A DNA stretch of 64,000 nt. Source: Acidobacteriota bacterium (GTDB taxonomy: Bacteria > Actinomycetota > Acidimicrobiia > Acidimicrobiales > RAAP-2). This document shows, one piece after another, positions 7,103-43,760 of this stretch; position 1 is the first letter of the stretch; each line of letters begins with the position of its first letter. The stretch spans positions 20,273 through 84,272 of the forward strand of contig JAGWHY010000004.1 of assembly GCA_028873575.1 (NCBI GenBank), given 5' to 3'. Made by a program: the position numbers and the translations under genes. Under the pieces are notes generated by a model, which did not search any database, was not told the origin of the DNA, and saw nothing but the letters and a program-made list of their open reading frames with translations.

Positions 7103-8041
7103 TTAGGCGGCGACCAGTTCTCGCTTGGTACCGGGCACGCGATCGCGCGCGCACTGGCGAAGATTGAACTGCGTCACGCCGATGGTCAGTGAGATCGCGC
7201 CCGCGACGTGGAGTTCGACCAACCAGGCGGGCAGGTGCGTCAAGTACTGGGTCGCGCCGATGGCCGCTTGGATCAAGGCGATATAGACGAGCCGACGTAC
7301 GCCGTGCTTGAGCGCCGTGGGGGCCGCGCTACGCCAGATCGCGGCGAGCAGTCCCGTTACGAGCCCGATAAACAACACCGCGGCGAGCGAGTGCACCCAC
7401 GCGGCCGACGAGAGCGCAAAGGGGAGTCGTCGCGCGACGAGCTGACCGGAGAAGGAACCGGCGTGCGGTCCCGATCCGGTCGTGGCGGTGCCCGTGGCGA
7501 CCAGTACGACGAAGGGAATCCACAGCAGTCGCGCGAGGAGTTTGAAGTAGGGATCACGTACGTCGGCGCGCGCGTGCGGGCCGTAGACGTACTTGGCGTG
7601 GTGGTACAACGTCGCGCCGACGCTCACCATGCCGAGCGAGAGAATCATGTGCGTGGCGACCAGCCACGGGTTGAGCTTGGAGTAGACGACGAAGGCCCCC
7701 AAAATGGCGTCGGCGATTACGCCCAGAATTAACGAAAAGGACAGCCAGGTCAGGTCGTGTCGGCGCTCCTCACGCAGCAACGAGGCCAGGTACGTGGCGA
7801 TCGCGACCAGCACGAGGGCAATCGTGACCACGCGGTTGGAGTACTCAATGAGGGGATGAATACTCCACGAACCGCTGATGCGGTGGCGAAAACAGGTGGG
7901 CCAGTCGGGGCAGCCGAGACCCGATCCGGTGAGGCGAACCGCCGCTCCGGTCAGGACAATGACGATCATCGCGAGGAACGACGCGAAGGCGAACCAGCGA
8001 AATGTGGGCGCACTTATTTTTCGAGTACTCAAAACGGACAC
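7103..8041 (-). CDS. ctaA: heme A synthase (COX15/CtaA family)
   Basis: 312 residues, eight predicted helices. It oxidises the C8 methyl of heme O to give heme A for heme-copper oxidase. Visible family features are the extracytoplasmic Cys pair in GSGLGCPDWPTCF (redox Cys of type-1 CtaA), heme-binding His residues in LVATHMILSLG, LYHHAKYV, WVHSLAAVL and ELHVAGAI, and two duplicated four-helix halves. The GTG start lies 6 nt from a minus-strand TAGGCT (8048-8053), suggesting a leaderless message. It is divergent from ctaB, the enzyme for the preceding step. Confidence 0.93.
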   Translation of the reverse strand: MSVLSTRKISAPTFRWFAFASFLAMIVIVLTGAAVRLTGSGLGCPDWPTCFRHRISGSWSIHPLIEYSNRVVTIALVLVAIATYLASLLREERRHDLTWLSFSLILGVIADAILGAFVVYSKLNPWLVATHMILSLGMVSVGATLYHHAKYVYGPHARADVRDPYFKLLARLLWIPFVVLVATGTATTGSGPHAGSFSGQLVARRLPFALSSAAWVHSLAAVLFIGLVTGLLAAIWRSAAPTALKHGVRRLVYIALIQAAIGATQYLTHLPAWLVELHVAGAISLTIGVTQFNLRQCARDRVPGTKRELVAA

Positions 8042-8047
8042 TCGCTT

Positions 8048-8053
8048 AGCCTA
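8048..8053 (-). promoter_or_regulatory. -10 hexamer for leaderless ctaA
   Basis: TAGGCT on the minus strand, 6 nt before the ctaA GTG. Together with the ctaB -10 element at 8071 it forms a compact 42-nt divergent promoter. Confidence 0.45.
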
Positions 8054-8070
8054 GGGACTGAATCGACTCC

Positions 8071-8076
8071 TAGACT
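8071..8076 (+). promoter_or_regulatory. -10 hexamer for leaderless ctaB
   Basis: TAGACT, 7 nt upstream of the ctaB GTG at 8084. The same hexamer and spacing recur at asd and gtrA. Confidence 0.5.
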
Positions 8077-8083
8077 GTCCCGA

Positions 8084-8998
8084 GTGACAATCACGGCACC
8101 TTCCACCACCTCGACGCGCGACGTCCTTAAGGGCTACGTCGCGCTGACCAAGCCGCGCATCATTGAACTACTGCTCGTCACCACGATCCCCACGATGGTG
8201 GTGGCGGCGAAGGGGATCCCCGGCCTCTGGCTCATCGTGGCGACCCTCATCGGTGGCACCCTCGCCGCCGGCGGCGCCAACGCGTTCAATATGGTGATCG
8301 ACCGCGACATCGACGCGGTGATGGAGCGCACCAAGCGCCGTCCCCTCGTCACCGGCGTGATGACGCCGCGCGCGGCCACGATCTTTGCGGTCGCTCTCGA
8401 AATCGTGGCCTTTGCGGTCCTCGCCCTCTGGGTGAATCAGCTTTCGGCCTGGCTCGCCATGTCGGCCACCGCCTTTTACGTCGTGATCTACACCCTGATT
8501 TTGAAGCGCCGCTCCAAGCAGAACATCGTCATCGGTGGCGCCGCGGGCGCCGTGCCGGTCTTGATCGGCTGGTCGGCGGTGACCAACTCGCTGGGCTGGA
8601 CGCCCGTGTTGTTGTTCCTCGTCATCTTCATTTGGACGCCGCCGCACTTTTGGGCGCTCGCCGTGCGCTACCGCGACGACTACCAAGCCGCCAACGTGCC
8701 GATGATGCCCGTCGTCGCGTCGCTGCGCCGCACCACGCTCGAGATCCTCATCTACTCGGTTCTGATGTGGGCGCTCACGGTCCTGATCGGGCCGACGGCC
8801 CACCTGGGCTGGATCTACGCCCTGAGCTCAATGGTGCTCGGAGGCGTCTTCACCTTCTACGCCCTGTTGCTGTACCGCCACGCGCGCAGTGGCGTCGCGG
8901 ACGTCGCCGAGGCGATGCGCCTCTTCCACTACTCGATTACGTACCTGTCAGCACTCTTTCTCGTGATGGCCGTTGACGTCCTTGTCCGATACCACTAA
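8084..8998 (+). CDS. ctaB: protoheme IX farnesyltransferase (heme O synthase)
   Basis: 304 residues, UbiA-superfamily prenyltransferase with nine helices. It transfers a farnesyl group to protoheme IX, making heme O. The first Asp-rich motif is NMVIDRDIDAVMERTKRRP and the second conserved loop is YRDDYQAANVPMMPVVAS. TKPRIIELLLVTT at the N-terminus is typical. The frame is open far upstream, but homology begins just after the GTG at 8084, which sits 7 nt after TAGACT. The product feeds CtaA, encoded divergently. The downstream thioredoxin-like gene overlaps its 3' end. Confidence 0.95.
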   Translation: MTITAPSTTSTRDVLKGYVALTKPRIIELLLVTTIPTMVVAAKGIPGLWLIVATLIGGTLAAGGANAFNMVIDRDIDAVMERTKRRPLVTGVMTPRAATIFAVALEIVAFAVLALWVNQLSAWLAMSATAFYVVIYTLILKRRSKQNIVIGGAAGAVPVLIGWSAVTNSLGWTPVLLFLVIFIWTPPHFWALAVRYRDDYQAANVPMMPVVASLRRTTLEILIYSVLMWALTVLIGPTAHLGWIYALSSMVLGGVFTFYALLLYRHARSGVADVAEAMRLFHYSITYLSALFLVMAVDVLVRYH

Positions 8999-9563
8999 GC
9001 CGCCGCGGGGTCGCCCGTCACCGATGATGTTCGTCTCGTTGGGCATCGGGACGACGGTGGCGATCGTGCTGATTTTGATCGTGTCGCTCCTGACCAACGC
9101 GCGTAACGCCAACGCGCCGTCGGGGGCGCTGCCCCCGAGTGCGCTGGTGGGTAAGCACGTGAAGGCCTTTTCCGCGCCGGGTCTCGTCGGGGGTACCGTG
9201 CGCGCGCCGTGGGCCAGTGGGCACCCGGGCGTCGTGATCTTCTTCGCGAGTTGGTGCACGCCCTGTCAAAAGGAACTGCCCAAGGTCGCCGCCTACCTCG
9301 ACGCGCACGCGACGGGCCCCGTGCGCGTGCTCGGGGTGGACGTCAACGACGCCAACGCCGCCGGCTCAAAATTCGTGCGAAAGTCCGGCGTGCACTTCGC
9401 GGTCGGCACCGATCCCAACTTCACCATCACCGCCGGGCTCTTTGGCTTTGGCCAAATTCCTGAGACCGTCTTCGTGAACGCCCAGGGCGTCGTTCAGCAG
9501 GTGTACTTCGGGGCGATTCCGGTTAACCAGTTAAAGGCCGGTTTGGCGCGACTTGGCGCCTAG
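8973..9563 (+). CDS. membrane-anchored thioredoxin-like protein (TlpA/ResA type)
   Basis: 196 residues: a cytoplasmic N-terminus rich in Pro/Arg, one helix (about 20-40), then an extracytoplasmic thioredoxin fold with the redox motif WCTPC and the cis-Pro loop IPETVFVNAQG. Family members reduce disulfides in apocytochromes or in the CuA site of oxidase; the position right after ctaB favours oxidase or cytochrome maturation. TTG at 8973 (overlapping ctaB by 26 nt) gives a complete N-terminus. ATG at 9024 would start just before the helix and is a fair alternative. Confidence 0.82.
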   Translation: MTSLSDTTKPPRGRPSPMMFVSLGIGTTVAIVLILIVSLLTNARNANAPSGALPPSALVGKHVKAFSAPGLVGGTVRAPWASGHPGVVIFFASWCTPCQKELPKVAAYLDAHATGPVRVLGVDVNDANAAGSKFVRKSGVHFAVGTDPNFTITAGLFGFGQIPETVFVNAQGVVQQVYFGAIPVNQLKAGLARLGA

Positions 9564-40422: not shown

Positions 40423-40926
40423 GTGCGGTCTCTCATCCTCGTGCGTCACGCGAAGGCGGTCCCGGCCGGCGCCGGGACGAGCGACGTCGAACGCGCCCTG
40501 AGCTCGCGTGGGGTGGCCCAGTGCGCGCAACTTCGTCGTCGGATCAGCGACCCCGACGATCTCGGTCGCTACGGCCCCGTCCACGCCTTAGTCAGCGCGG
40601 CCGCGCGCACGCGCGAGACCTTCGAGTTGGCCTTCGCGGGCACCTCGTTCGTTGAGGGAGTGACGTACTCACCGACTATCTACAACGGCGCGCGCGACGT
40701 GTCCGCCGACGACTTGCTCGCGGCGTTGGTGGAGGTCGACCCCCTCGAGGGCTCGCTACTTGTCGTCGCGCACAACCCGAGCGTGGCCGAGTTGTTGTGG
40801 GCGTTAACGGGTGAAGTTTTGCGTGACGGCTACCCGACGGCCGGCCTGTGCGTGATTACCCTCCACGGCGCGGGACGAGTGGATGAGTGCGCGTACGAGC
40901 TCGTGGAACGCGTCGTCGTCGATTAG
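40423..40926 (+). CDS. sixA: SixA-like phosphohistidine phosphatase (histidine phosphatase family)
   Basis: 167 residues. RHG-type motif as LILVRHAKAVP, then SRGVAQCAQL, SAAARTRETFELA (second Arg) and VAHNPSVAELLW (second His). Small branch-1 histidine phosphatases of this type act on phosphohistidine or small phosphate esters. Its TAG stop is the left edge of the islet at 40927: the last codons GAT TAG fall in the 8-bp flanking duplication. Confidence 0.85.
   Translation: MRSLILVRHAKAVPAGAGTSDVERALSSRGVAQCAQLRRRISDPDDLGRYGPVHALVSAAARTRETFELAFAGTSFVEGVTYSPTIYNGARDVSADDLLAALVEVDPLEGSLLVVAHNPSVAELLWALTGEVLRDGYPTAGLCVITLHGAGRVDECAYELVERVVVD
40919..40926. repeat. left copy of 8-bp flanking near-duplication
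   Basis: TCGATTAG, including the sixA Asp codon and stop. The right copy TCGACTAG at 42578-42585 differs at one, synonymous, base. Confidence 0.55.
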
Positions 40927-40939
40927 GGGATTTGGACAA
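40927..40939 (+). repeat. left 13-bp terminal inverted repeat
   Basis: GGGATTTGGACAA, matching 13/13 the inverted copy at 42565-42577. Immediately inside lies AAAGGT-AAA-ACCTTT, a small hairpin that could end sixA transcription. Confidence 0.6.
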
Positions 40940-41060
40940 AGGTAAAACCTTTTGCCGTTCGTGGCTTTGCAGGCCACGCTTCGTGGTTCGTGACCACCGG
41001 AGCCAGCAGCGATCACCGCGAGAAAGGCACGCTTCGACCAGGTAAAATCGGCTTGTTTCT

Positions 41061-41126
41061 GGTTCCGCAGAACTGAAGTCCAGGGTCCGCAAAACTGAAG
41101 TTCATGGTTCGCAGAACTGAAGTTTG
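41061..41126 (+). repeat. three 22-bp direct repeats (iteron-like) upstream of the AAA_14 gene
   Basis: Units start at 41061, 41083 and 41105 with an exact 22-nt period; the shared core is CCGCAGAACTGAAGT with one or two differences per unit. The last unit overlaps the predicted -35 element. Spacing of two helical turns puts the sites on one DNA face, as for operator arrays or replication iterons. Confidence 0.8.
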
Positions 41127-41135
41127 CGGTATAAT
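41108..41135 (+). promoter_or_regulatory. promoter of the AAA_14/DUF4143 gene
   Basis: -35 TTCGCA (41108-41113), 16-nt spacer, perfect -10 TATAAT (41130-41135). The GTG start follows after 6 nt, so the message should be leaderless. The -35 lies inside the third 22-bp repeat. Confidence 0.7.
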
Positions 41136-41141
41136 AATCTG

Positions 41142-42419
41142 GTGCCGGCTCAGTCCTATCCCCTGCGAAAGCGGCGGGCTCTGGCCCTGACCACCACTCT
41201 CATGGCCGACGCGCCGGTCGTACTCCTCGAAGGCCCTCGAGCCGTGGGGAAATCTACGCTCCTGAACCAAGTGGCCGCCGCACAGAGCGGTCGCGTGGTC
41301 GACCTGGACGAACCGGCGACAAGAGACGCTGTAGTGGCGGACCCGGCACTGGCGGTGTCGGGGGAAGGTCCGGTGTGCCTGGACGAGTACCAGAAGGCAC
41401 CCGAAGTACTCGAGGCCATAAAGGCTGAACTGAACAAGCACACTGCACCGGGCAGATTTGTTCTGACTGGTTCCACCCGACACGACTCGCTCCCAGTTAC
41501 CGCGCAGTCACTCACTGGGCGCGTGACCTCCCTAACCGTGTTCCCACTCTCCCAGGGGGAGCAGTGTGGTGTGCACGAGGACTTCCTGGAAGTTGCTATC
41601 AACGACCCGTCCAAAGTAATCACCAGGCATCTGGCCACTACGACTCGGCCCGATTACATCGCTCGTGTCACGTGCGGGGGTTTCCCCCTCGCTCTCGCCG
41701 CTTCTTCCGGTGACGCTCGGCGCCGGTGGATCCGAGATTACGTCCGACTCACGCTTGAGCGCGACGTCCGAGACCTCAGCAATCTTCGTCAAGGGGACAA
41801 ACTACGAACACTTCTGGATCGCCTGGCGGGACAGACCGCCCAAGTCCTCAACGTGGCGAAGGCGGCTGAGGATGTGGGACTTACCGACAAGACGGCAGAA
41901 AGCTACGTCAACCTTTTGGAGAAGGTGTTCCTGGTCTACCGTCTCGAGGCGTGGGGGACGACCCTCATTGCACGGACCTTGTCGAAACCGAAGGTACATG
42001 TGCTCGACACCGCCGTGGCGGCCGTGCTGATGCGACTCACTCCGGAGAAGCTGACCACCATTGATGCTACAGCCAGTAAGAAATTTGGTCACCTGGTTGA
42101 GACGTTCGCAGTCGGCGAACTGAGGAAACAGGCCTCCTGGATCGAGGGGATCACGGGCATCGGTCATTGGCGCCATCATGACGGAGACGAAGTCGACCTG
42201 ATTATCGAGCGCGAGGACGGGGGAATACTGGGTTTCGAGATGAAAGCTGGAGGCCGGGTGTCGGGACCAGAGTTGAAAGGGTTGGCCCACCTGAGGGACA
42301 GCGTGGGAGACCGATTCCTTGGTGGCTTCGTCCTCTACTTGGGAAAGCGCTCTTACACCTACAGTGACCGGATTCACGTAGCCCCGCTCGATCGACTTTG
42401 GACTCCGATCGGCGACTGA
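41142..42419 (+). CDS. AAA_14-domain ATPase with C-terminal DUF4143
   Basis: About 425 residues. N-terminal P-loop domain: Walker A EGPRAVGKSTL (31-40), Walker B PVCLDEYQKAPE (about 77-88), and sensor FVLTGSTRHDS. Middle winged-helix-like part (NVAKAAEDVGLTDKTAESYVNLLEKVFLV split here) and C-terminal DUF4143 with a PD-(D/E)xK-like pattern: EVDLIIE then GFEMKAG. Such proteins are frequent, patchily distributed and of unknown function; defence, toxin-like and regulatory roles have been suggested. GTG start set by TATAAT 6 nt upstream. Composition and islet boundaries indicate acquisition. Confidence 0.88.
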   Translation: MPAQSYPLRKRRALALTTTLMADAPVVLLEGPRAVGKSTLLNQVAAAQSGRVVDLDEPATRDAVVADPALAVSGEGPVCLDEYQKAPEVLEAIKAELNKHTAPGRFVLTGSTRHDSLPVTAQSLTGRVTSLTVFPLSQGEQCGVHEDFLEVAINDPSKVITRHLATTTRPDYIARVTCGGFPLALAASSGDARRRWIRDYVRLTLERDVRDLSNLRQGDKLRTLLDRLAGQTAQVLNVAKAAEDVGLTDKTAESYVNLLEKVFLVYRLEAWGTTLIARTLSKPKVHVLDTAVAAVLMRLTPEKLTTIDATASKKFGHLVETFAVGELRKQASWIEGITGIGHWRHHDGDEVDLIIEREDGGILGFEMKAGGRVSGPELKGLAHLRDSVGDRFLGGFVLYLGKRSYTYSDRIHVAPLDRLWTPIGD

Positions 42420-42564
42420 TGGCGCTGGCCTGGCCCAGCTGAGGCAGGCACTGGAGTTCACTGAGTCTCCGTCGGCCGAGAACCACGTCAGGTCGGTGTT
42501 AGGGCCTCATTGTCCCGCAAGGATCTTCCACGCGACCGCGTTTGTCCGAACGGTTGGGGGATCC

Positions 42565-42577
42565 TTGTCCAAATCCC
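42565..42577 (-). repeat. right 13-bp terminal inverted repeat
   Basis: TTGTCCAAATCCC on the plus strand, the exact inverse of the left repeat. The 145 nt between the ATPase stop and this repeat hold no supported gene. Confidence 0.6.
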
Positions 42578-42585
42578 TCGACTAG
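42578..42585. repeat. right copy of 8-bp flanking near-duplication
   Basis: TCGACTAG; its CTA is the complement of the thiolase stop codon. Compare TCGATTAG at 40919. Confidence 0.55.
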
Positions 42586-43760
42586 AGCGAACGCAGAATC
42601 GCGCCGTCGCCCTGACCGCCCCCGCCGCACAGCGCCACCGCCGCGACGCCGCCGCCGCGACGACGCAGTTCGTAGAGCGCGGTTAGCGCCAAGCGCGTTC
42701 CCGACATGCCGACCGGGTGTCCGAGCGCGATCGCGCCGCCGTTGACGTTGATCTTGTTCTCGTCGATGCCCAGATCGTCGGCCGAGGCGAGTCCCACCGC
42801 CGCGAAGGCCTCGTTGATTTCGAACAGGTCGAGACCCTTCACGTCGAGCTGCGCCTTGGCGGCGGCCTGTTGAATCGCGCGCGAGGGTTGCGTGAGCAGC
42901 GACGCGTCGGGTCCGGCGACTTGGCCGTAACTGACCAGTTCACCGAGGGGGGTGAGTCCCAGTTCGGCGCAGCGCTCTTCGGACATCACGATGAGCGCGG
43001 CCGCCCCGTCGGAGATCTGTGAGGCGTTGCCGGCGGTGATGGTCCCGTCCTTTTCGAAGGCGCCTCTCAGCGCGGCCAGTGACTCGACCGTGGTTTCGCC
43101 GCGCACGCCCTCGTCGGTCGCGACCTGCAGCGGGTCGCCCTTACGCTGGGCGACGGCGACGGGGACGATCTCTTCGGCGAAGCGGCCCGAGGCGATCGCG
43201 GCGGCCGCCAGTTGGTGGCTGCGCGCCGAGAACTCGTCTTGACGCTGACGCGTGATGGCGCCTGCGTTGTAGCGCTCGGTGGCCAGTCCCATCGCGCAGT
43301 GGTCGAAGGCGCAGGTCAGTCCGTCGAACATCATCGAGTCGACAACCTTCTGGTCGCCAATGCGGTAGCCGGCGCGCGCGCCTGGGAGGAGGTAGGGCGC
43401 GTTGGTCATGGACTCCATGCCCCCGGCCACCACCACGGCGGCTTCACCGGCGCGAATCATCAGGTCGGCGAGGTAGAGAGTCTGCAGTCCCGACAGGCAG
43501 ACCTTGTTAATCGTGGTGGCGTGCACGCTCATCGGCACGCCGCCGGCGACGGCCGCCTGGCGAGCCGTGATCTGGCCCTGTCCGGCCTGGATGACTTGGC
43601 CCATCAAGACCGCGTCGACGCTCTGGGGGTCGACGCCGGCGCGCTCCAGGGCGCCCTTAATGGCCACGCCACCTAGATCTTGGGCGCTAACGGAGGCAAA
43701 GGCTCCCGACAACTTGCCAATGGCGGTGCGGCTACCCGCGACAATCACACTGCGCGACAT
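42582..43760 (-). CDS. acetyl-CoA acetyltransferase (thiolase)
   Basis: 392 residues. Acyl-accepting Cys at about 88 in NKVCLSGLQTL; NEAFAAVGLAS; GGAIALGHPVGMSGTRLA (catalytic His); and ALCGGGGQGDGAILRSL with the second Cys. ATG at 43760 follows AAGGAGAG; the frame is open further but unsupported. As a biosynthetic thiolase it would condense two acetyl-CoA to acetoacetyl-CoA, the first step of the ethylmalonyl-CoA pathway whose later genes are adjacent and divergent. A beta-oxidation role is also possible. Confidence 0.92.
   Translation of the reverse strand: MSRSVIVAGSRTAIGKLSGAFASVSAQDLGGVAIKGALERAGVDPQSVDAVLMGQVIQAGQGQITARQAAVAGGVPMSVHATTINKVCLSGLQTLYLADLMIRAGEAAVVVAGGMESMTNAPYLLPGARAGYRIGDQKVVDSMMFDGLTCAFDHCAMGLATERYNAGAITRQRQDEFSARSHQLAAAAIASGRFAEEIVPVAVAQRKGDPLQVATDEGVRGETTVESLAALRGAFEKDGTITAGNASQISDGAAALIVMSEERCAELGLTPLGELVSYGQVAGPDASLLTQPSRAIQQAAAKAQLDVKGLDLFEINEAFAAVGLASADDLGIDENKINVNGGAIALGHPVGMSGTRLALTALYELRRRGGGVAAVALCGGGGQGDGAILRSL

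Follow-up and report, generated by a model that had tools for sequence, protein, structure and literature searches.

Genes for AAA_14/DUF4143 proteins are very common and stand alone, and a carrier with defined ends would make their spread testable. How does such a gene arrive at a place where no transposase accompanies it? The question is raised by a 64,000-nt stretch of contig JAGWHY010000004.1 (assembly GCA_028873575.1, positions 20,273 to 84,272, forward strand; the whole stretch is called the window here) from an Acidobacteriota bacterium (GTDB lineage Bacteria; Actinomycetota; Acidimicrobiia; Acidimicrobiales; RAAP-2), in which an islet of 1651 bp (~1.65 kb) carrying one ATPase gene lies between a sixA gene and a thiolase gene. 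We show here that the islet is an insertion with transposon-like ends, and that such ends recur in the genus on elements that carry only cargo. It is likely that the islet is a mobile insertion cassette (MIC), that is, cargo placed between transposon ends without a transposase, and it is predicted to be moved in trans by a module of two genes, named HLP and TNP below, located elsewhere.

An insertion between two convergent genes

The islet is bounded by the 13-mer GGGATTTGGACAA, present on the forward strand at 40927-40939 and on the reverse strand at 42565-42577, the two copies matching at 13/13 positions in inverted orientation. Directly outside them lie TCGATTAG (40919-40926) and TCGACTAG (42578-42585), which agree at 7/8 positions, the sole mismatch being synonymous (GAT/GAC, both Asp). 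The left of these copies provides the stop codon of sixA, a gene of the histidine phosphatase family (40423-40926, forward strand), and the right one that of the thiolase gene (42582-43760, reverse strand). The interior is less GC-rich than its surroundings (59.8% versus 66.0% and 65.4% in the 5-kb flanks) and holds one gene, for a 425-residue ATPase (41142-42419, forward strand; DUF4143 at 1.9e-38, AAA_14 at 2.1e-20). No further long sense open reading frame (ORF) was accepted as a gene, and tblastn found no HLP or TNP match inside the islet, whose other ORFs were not run against family libraries. A preliminary description of the sequence had named the repeats, the near-exact duplication, the two stop codons, the synonymous mismatch and the less GC-rich interior with one AAA_14/DUF4143 gene and no transposase, and these were borne out.

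The inverted repeat alone is no proof of mobility, because one of 13/13 also turned up in 13 of 300 versions of the two 800-base flanks shuffled by dinucleotide. Taken by itself this would allow chance repeats to flank a vertically inherited gene, an explanation that we find barely credible: a 13/13 repeat together with a duplication of at least 7/8 arose in 0/300 shuffles, the same 13-mer is found in other genomes, and the site is empty in other loci of the genus. Thirty sixA loci were fetched, the window's included, a sixA match being present in 68 of 100 related genomes. The convergent thiolase gene is present in 28 of the 29 other genus loci; the two stops overlap by exactly 4 bp in 22 of these 28 and lie within 16 bp of each other in 27, the remaining locus, L046 of genome G019, having the largest distance between the stops, 289 bp. 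In none of the 28 would the ATPase gene fit between the stops, which identifies the islet as an insertion. L042, the closest relative (89% identity in sixA, 98% in thiolase), has an empty junction reading GACTAGAGCGA; collapsing the window onto its left copy gives GATTAGAGCGA. The expectation that collapsing the copies rebuilds convergent genes with overlapping stops, and that relatives hold the junction without the islet, was thus confirmed. Either the duplication was at first 9 bp long (TCGACTAGA) and its left copy has since lost one base, or it was 8 bp from the start. Both stop codons are preserved, and the insertion may have been neutral, as had been suggested.

Shared ends with interchangeable cargo

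The 13-mer GGGATTTGGACAA occurs at 13 places in 12 of 99 genomes of the genus, two of the places being the window's own and the others lying in 11 other genomes, and its reversed control occurs at none. At 6 of the 11 non-window places CACCACG is found, on either strand, within the outer 10 bases, and in L184, L185 and L186 the end directly abuts the 3' end of a tRNA-Ile gene. We aligned the window's right end, termed A-type, with 11 other A-type ends, two of which read GGGATTCGGACAA. A subterminal motif, TTYRGACA, occupies the same place in 7 of these 12 ends (shifted by a base in one), the window's among them, where the subterminal repeat is CCGTTCGGACAAACG (42539-42553, reverse strand). The pattern GGVATTYGGACAA has 36 places, several of which seem to be fortuitous or to reflect coding sequence; its reversed control has 3. 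A descent of the end 13-mer from a tRNA T-arm, which it resembles in some loci, was considered and dropped.

The same ends enclose other cargo. L184 holds an element of 1414 bp at the tRNA-Ile end, its duplication matching at 9/9 (TCGTGGTGG); it encodes a kinase-like protein, just below the Pfam cut-off, and a GNAT acetyltransferase. An 846-bp element in L225 (9/9 duplication, one end 10/13) encloses a short ORF without a Pfam match, and L226 and L227 (8/9 duplication, one end 12/13) enclose the same kind of ORF, which to us looks RelE/ParE-like. The 1975-bp element of L229 has a 9/9 duplication and carries HipA, its ends matching at only 8/13, and L182 and L223 hold weaker elements with 7/9 duplications. 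No TNP or HLP was found by tblastn in any of these seven elements. The cargo across elements ranges over candidate defence ATPases, kinase-like and GNAT proteins, HipA and RelE-like ORFs.

A second type of end, GGTGTTTACGAAA or close to it, bounds two distant AAA_14 loci, L109 and L110 (~28% identity to the window protein), whose proteins are 97% identical between genomes G004 and G011. Here 9-bp duplications (9/9 in L109, 8/9 in L110) sit at the 3' end of tRNA-Ser, and a remnant of a transposase gene is present in both; none was found by tblastn in L095. The variable base of the duplication differs by species yet agrees on both sides of the element (CCGTGGCGG in L109, CCCTGGCGG in L095), as expected of separate insertions. 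At L278, whose protein is 60% identical to that of the window, a GGTGTTGACGAAA end lies upstream and an apparent tRNA-Ser 3' end downstream, ARAGORN making no call at the latter, where bases read N. Within the 99 genomes GGTGTTTACGAAA occurs at 40 places in 26 (control 0). The places in L124, L128, L131 and L147 have unrelated flanks and were not used, and for GGVATTYGGACAA and GGTGTTTACGAAA alike we relied only on places that belong to complete elements or have tRNA-like flanks.

A scan with both end consensuses gave 15 element spans in the loci fetched, and each of 30 shuffled-consensus runs gave 0; as the loci had been gathered partly via AAA_14 and these ends, the counts should not be taken as frequencies, nor is the control fully independent. 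One span is a composite of two others. Eight of the remaining 14 contain neither HLP nor TNP, four contain a TNP fragment only and two contain both. AAA_14 is carried by 5 of the 14 and is absent from 9. Two elements are also seen in tandem or abutting at one site, with a single 9-10 bp between them (L201, 40-8514; L183, near 491-514; L146, 449-483).

These counts bear on whether the AAA_14/DUF4143 protein could itself be the transposition enzyme, making the islet autonomous. It is the only gene found between the window's ends, distant AAA_14 genes also lie inside the second end family, and tRNA 3' ends within 1 kb mostly face the AAA_14 gene (11 toward, 2 away). This explanation is nonetheless highly improbable, as the same end families enclose unrelated cargo in 9 of the 14 non-composite spans and the full elements described below have a DDE transposase instead. 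Moreover, a de novo search for an inverted repeat plus duplication around 82 AAA_14 genes reached a score of at least 34 at only 5 (versus 1 of 399 swapped-flank controls) and of at least 28 at only 8 (versus 3 of 399), and most AAA_14 loci therefore show no such ends. L086 and L088, among the five best, and L029 and L085, among the eight, lie outside both end families and were not relied on.

The tRNA genes just mentioned lie within 1 kb of 13 of the 82 AAA_14 genes, a count that drops the duplicates L109 and L110 and retains a few near-duplicates. The 3' end points toward the AAA_14 gene in L009, L015, L026, L031, L032, L035, L074, L088, L091, L102 and L105, and away from it in L021 and L100; in L009, L026, L031 and L032 the two genes adjoin. 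Two genomes sampled at the level of the order, G093 and G094, have 18 and 14 AAA_14 matches, and the stretches fetched from them gave no span with the two end families.

Full elements and their putative mover

The transposase remnant in L109 and L110 led us to full elements, in which two adjacent genes recur, TNP (565-589 residues) and HLP (617-642 residues). TNP is of the DDE type. Its only NCBIfam match is to IS1182 (NF033551), whose cut-off of 270 bits lies far above the 27.1 and 19.2 bits obtained, and TNP is therefore not an IS1182 member; Pfam gives weak matches to DDE_Tnp_1 or DDE_Tnp_1_6 only. HLP matches no Pfam family, the rest of the genes of the full elements having been partly scanned. 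Relatives of TNP are present in 36 of the 298 order-level genomes sampled.

Two full elements have complete boundaries. That of L193 spans 7418 bp (7.4 kb), encodes HLP and TNP, and has ends matching the consensus at 13/13 and 12/13 with a 9/9 duplication. That of L342, from another family of the order, spans 8364 bp (8.4 kb) between 13/13 ends (GGTCCTTACGAAA), with a 9/9 duplication directly at tRNA-Ser, and holds TNP together with a stretch of 298 residues that matches HLP at 46% identity. The ends of both are of the second type and not of the window type. Among the 12 order-level loci fetched L342 is the sole convincing pair; two weaker hits in L341 were not counted. A link with the window-type ends comes from L222, where HLP and TNP are accompanied by an end of the opposite, B type (GGCATTCGGACAA); over the 45 bases that follow, it agrees with the B-type ends of L182, L183 and L184 at 38, 37 and 34 places, levels reached in 0 of 1000 shuffles each. 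The element of L193 has further cargo, a Schlafen AlbA_2/RecG-like protein at 7575-9350.

HLP resembles a tyrosine recombinase. Its predicted model (pLDDT 80, pTM 0.53) gave 19 Foldseek matches with E up to 0.001, all of them Cre, XerA or XerH (best E 1.6e-4, probability 1.00, TM-scores of only 0.2-0.4), and its sequence matches the integrase profile phrog_1 at 6.1e-5. When the catalytic residues are assigned to columns by our reading of the alignment, Arg-II is kept in 32 of 32 homologues. Arg-I is replaced by Ser in 30 of them and the two His by Arg and Leu throughout, and the Tyr column reads Y in 12, W in 12, T in 4, S in 2, H in 1 and F in 1. Because most catalytic positions are lost, HLP is likely a dead recombinase, and one that may act in the choice of target, as TnsF does in Tn6022.

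The same resemblance invites another explanation. The 3' ends of tRNA genes are the classic integration target of tyrosine recombinases, and the insertions might result from site-specific integration by an active HLP, the repeats being core sites; the Cre/Xer fold matches, the phrog_1 match and the invariant Arg-II would all fit. We nevertheless regard this as very unlikely. The flanking 9 bp differ from one host site to the next, whereas the ends hardly vary (CCGTGGCGG, CCCTGGCGG and CCTTGGCGG each appear on both sides). Of the catalytic set, Arg-I, both His and a conserved Tyr are lacking in the 32 aligned sequences, and a DDE protein accompanies HLP.

The reading that we favour is movement of the islet in trans by an HLP-TNP type module. 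TNP would pair the 13-bp ends, cut and join, and HLP would bind the target, which is mostly a tRNA gene at its CCA end and, in the case of the islet, the place where two convergent genes overlap in their stops. Insertion would leave a staggered duplication of 8-9 bp, and any DNA between two such ends could move once HLP and TNP were supplied. Both this likely mover and the preference for tRNA 3' ends had escaped the preliminary description.

Several observations weigh against this reading. Searches of the host genome (1.8 Mb, 96.55% complete) yielded neither HLP nor TNP, nor does the exact 13-mer occur there beyond the window's pair, so that the further copies of the repeat pair for which the preliminary description proposed a search were absent; a one-mismatch match near the start of a contig (L003) looks by eye like coding sequence. 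No autonomous element with both window-type ends was found, no A-type end lies in the 3.7 kb upstream of HLP in L222, and scans around the other HLP-TNP loci yielded no convincing pair of ends. The B-type ends of L223 and L225-L227 are unlike that of L222. Five of the 11 other A-type ends lack TTYRGACA at the shared place, and the 45 subterminal bases of the window's left end match the B-type ends of L222, L182, L183 and L184 at a marginal 16-17 of 45, a level reached by 16 to 59 of 1000 shuffles. The window's duplication is 8 bp with one mismatch and not 9 bp, its target is not a tRNA end, and the majority of AAA_14 loci are without such ends.

Some of these points would fit a conventional insertion sequence of another family that inserted the gene, the likeness of its ends to the genus elements being convergence. 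The failure to find a matching transposase in the host genome, the 8-bp duplication and the marginal left subterminal match all speak for it. We still consider it unlikely, since the right subterminal repeat is common to 6 of the 11 other ends and none of the 30 shuffled-consensus controls gave a span. The islet as a passenger-type mobile unit, as first described, is supported by the empty sites, by the 13-mer in 11 other genomes and by cargo-only elements without a transposase. The accompanying suggestion that it may explain how ATPase genes of this kind spread without a linked transposase holds for a few lineages in the genus (5 of the 14 non-composite spans, from a sample gathered partly via AAA_14), a demonstration that does not extend to the entire family.

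The cargo ATPase and comparison with known systems

The cargo is predicted to be a STAND-like ATPase of the candidate defence family PDC-S01. It matches PADLOC model PDLC04790 at 468 bits (4.5e-141), and its predicted structure (pLDDT 89) has the archaeal ATPases 2qen and 2fna as top Foldseek matches (TM 0.42-0.43), with Avs5 and Avs4 lower; phmmer against the PDB gave nothing at E 0.01. The gene probably starts with the GTG at 41142 and not with the TTG at 41124, the former being favoured because the homologue P0036 starts with MPAQS. A TATAAT at 41130-41135 (forward strand), a candidate -10 box, lies 6 bp before this likely start, and the transcript is possibly leaderless.

Over the promoter lie three tandem copies of a 22-bp repeat with the core CGCAGAACTGAAGT (41057-41123, forward strand), which are likely operator or self-binding sites and through which the ATPase gene is likely controlled. 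Triple repeats, mostly with a period of 23 and with a sequence of their own at each locus, precede 29 of 75 AAA_14 genes; in the controls they appeared in 0 of 225 base shuffles and in 1 of the 71 stretches taken downstream, five duplicate loci and loci with short or masked flanks having been removed first. The repeats may be sites bound by the product of the AAA_14 gene itself or its operators. Examples of such repeats, of 22-23 bp, stand directly upstream of the gene in L004, L012, L016, L075, L076, L077, L095, L097 and others.

If the proposed movement is true, the cassette system would offer PDC-S01-type ATPases one way of spreading as lone genes. PDC-S01 is a PADLOC candidate single-gene defence family whose abundance is treated in PMC12988326. 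What the islet would add to this candidate defence family is carriage on a cassette with transposon ends.

MICs, as defined in PMC3913671, include MIC231 of Bacillus cereus and mic-qnrD. The islet is most likely of this kind, with two inverted repeats, a target duplication with an empty site and a passenger gene without a transposase, and movement in trans would likewise be expected. It differs from the examples of that source in its ends, in the putative DDE mover with a dead-recombinase partner, in the preference for tRNA 3' ends and in the several cargos found within one genus. A population of such cassettes with a common mover, if it exists, would be comparable to a system of gene cassettes lacking an integron.

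It is possible, and we propose it only tentatively, that the divergent DDE transposase and the dead tyrosine recombinase together represent an unnamed kind of transposon, aimed at tRNA 3' ends and a few other gene ends and serving transposase-less cassettes of one or two genes with interchangeable cargo. It would add a transposon with a preference for safe sites, namely tRNA CCA ends and, here, overlapping stop codons. Unlike IS1182, TNP scores 27.1 and 19.2 bits where 270 are needed and is adjoined by an HLP gene, and the open-access literature searched held no IS1182 linked with a tRNA gene and a target-site duplication. No paper on a pair of DDE transposase and dead tyrosine recombinase was among the open-access matches listed, subscription papers being mostly outside that scope. 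Tn7-like transposons duplicate 5 bp of their target, in contrast to the 9 bp of the sister elements and the 8 bp of the window. They are also marked by TnsB/TnsC/TniQ-type proteins; among those genes of the full elements that were scanned, TNP gave Pfam matches of the weak DDE kind and HLP gave none.

The nearest published parallel that we found is nevertheless a Tn7-like element, Tn6022, whose TnsF, according to PMC10293859, is a target selector with an inactivated tyrosine-recombinase domain. Both pair a transposition system that favours certain targets with a tyrosine recombinase that is catalytically dead in TnsF and probably so in HLP. The partners of TnsF are TniQ and the Tn7 proteins, at comM, whereas HLP has a distantly IS1182-like DDE partner, and its elements are found mostly at tRNA 3' ends with 9-bp duplications. 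The carrier described here looks like a new variant of a DDE transposon with a recombinase-derived target selector, and the pair would suggest that recombinases have been recruited repeatedly as selectors of transposition targets.

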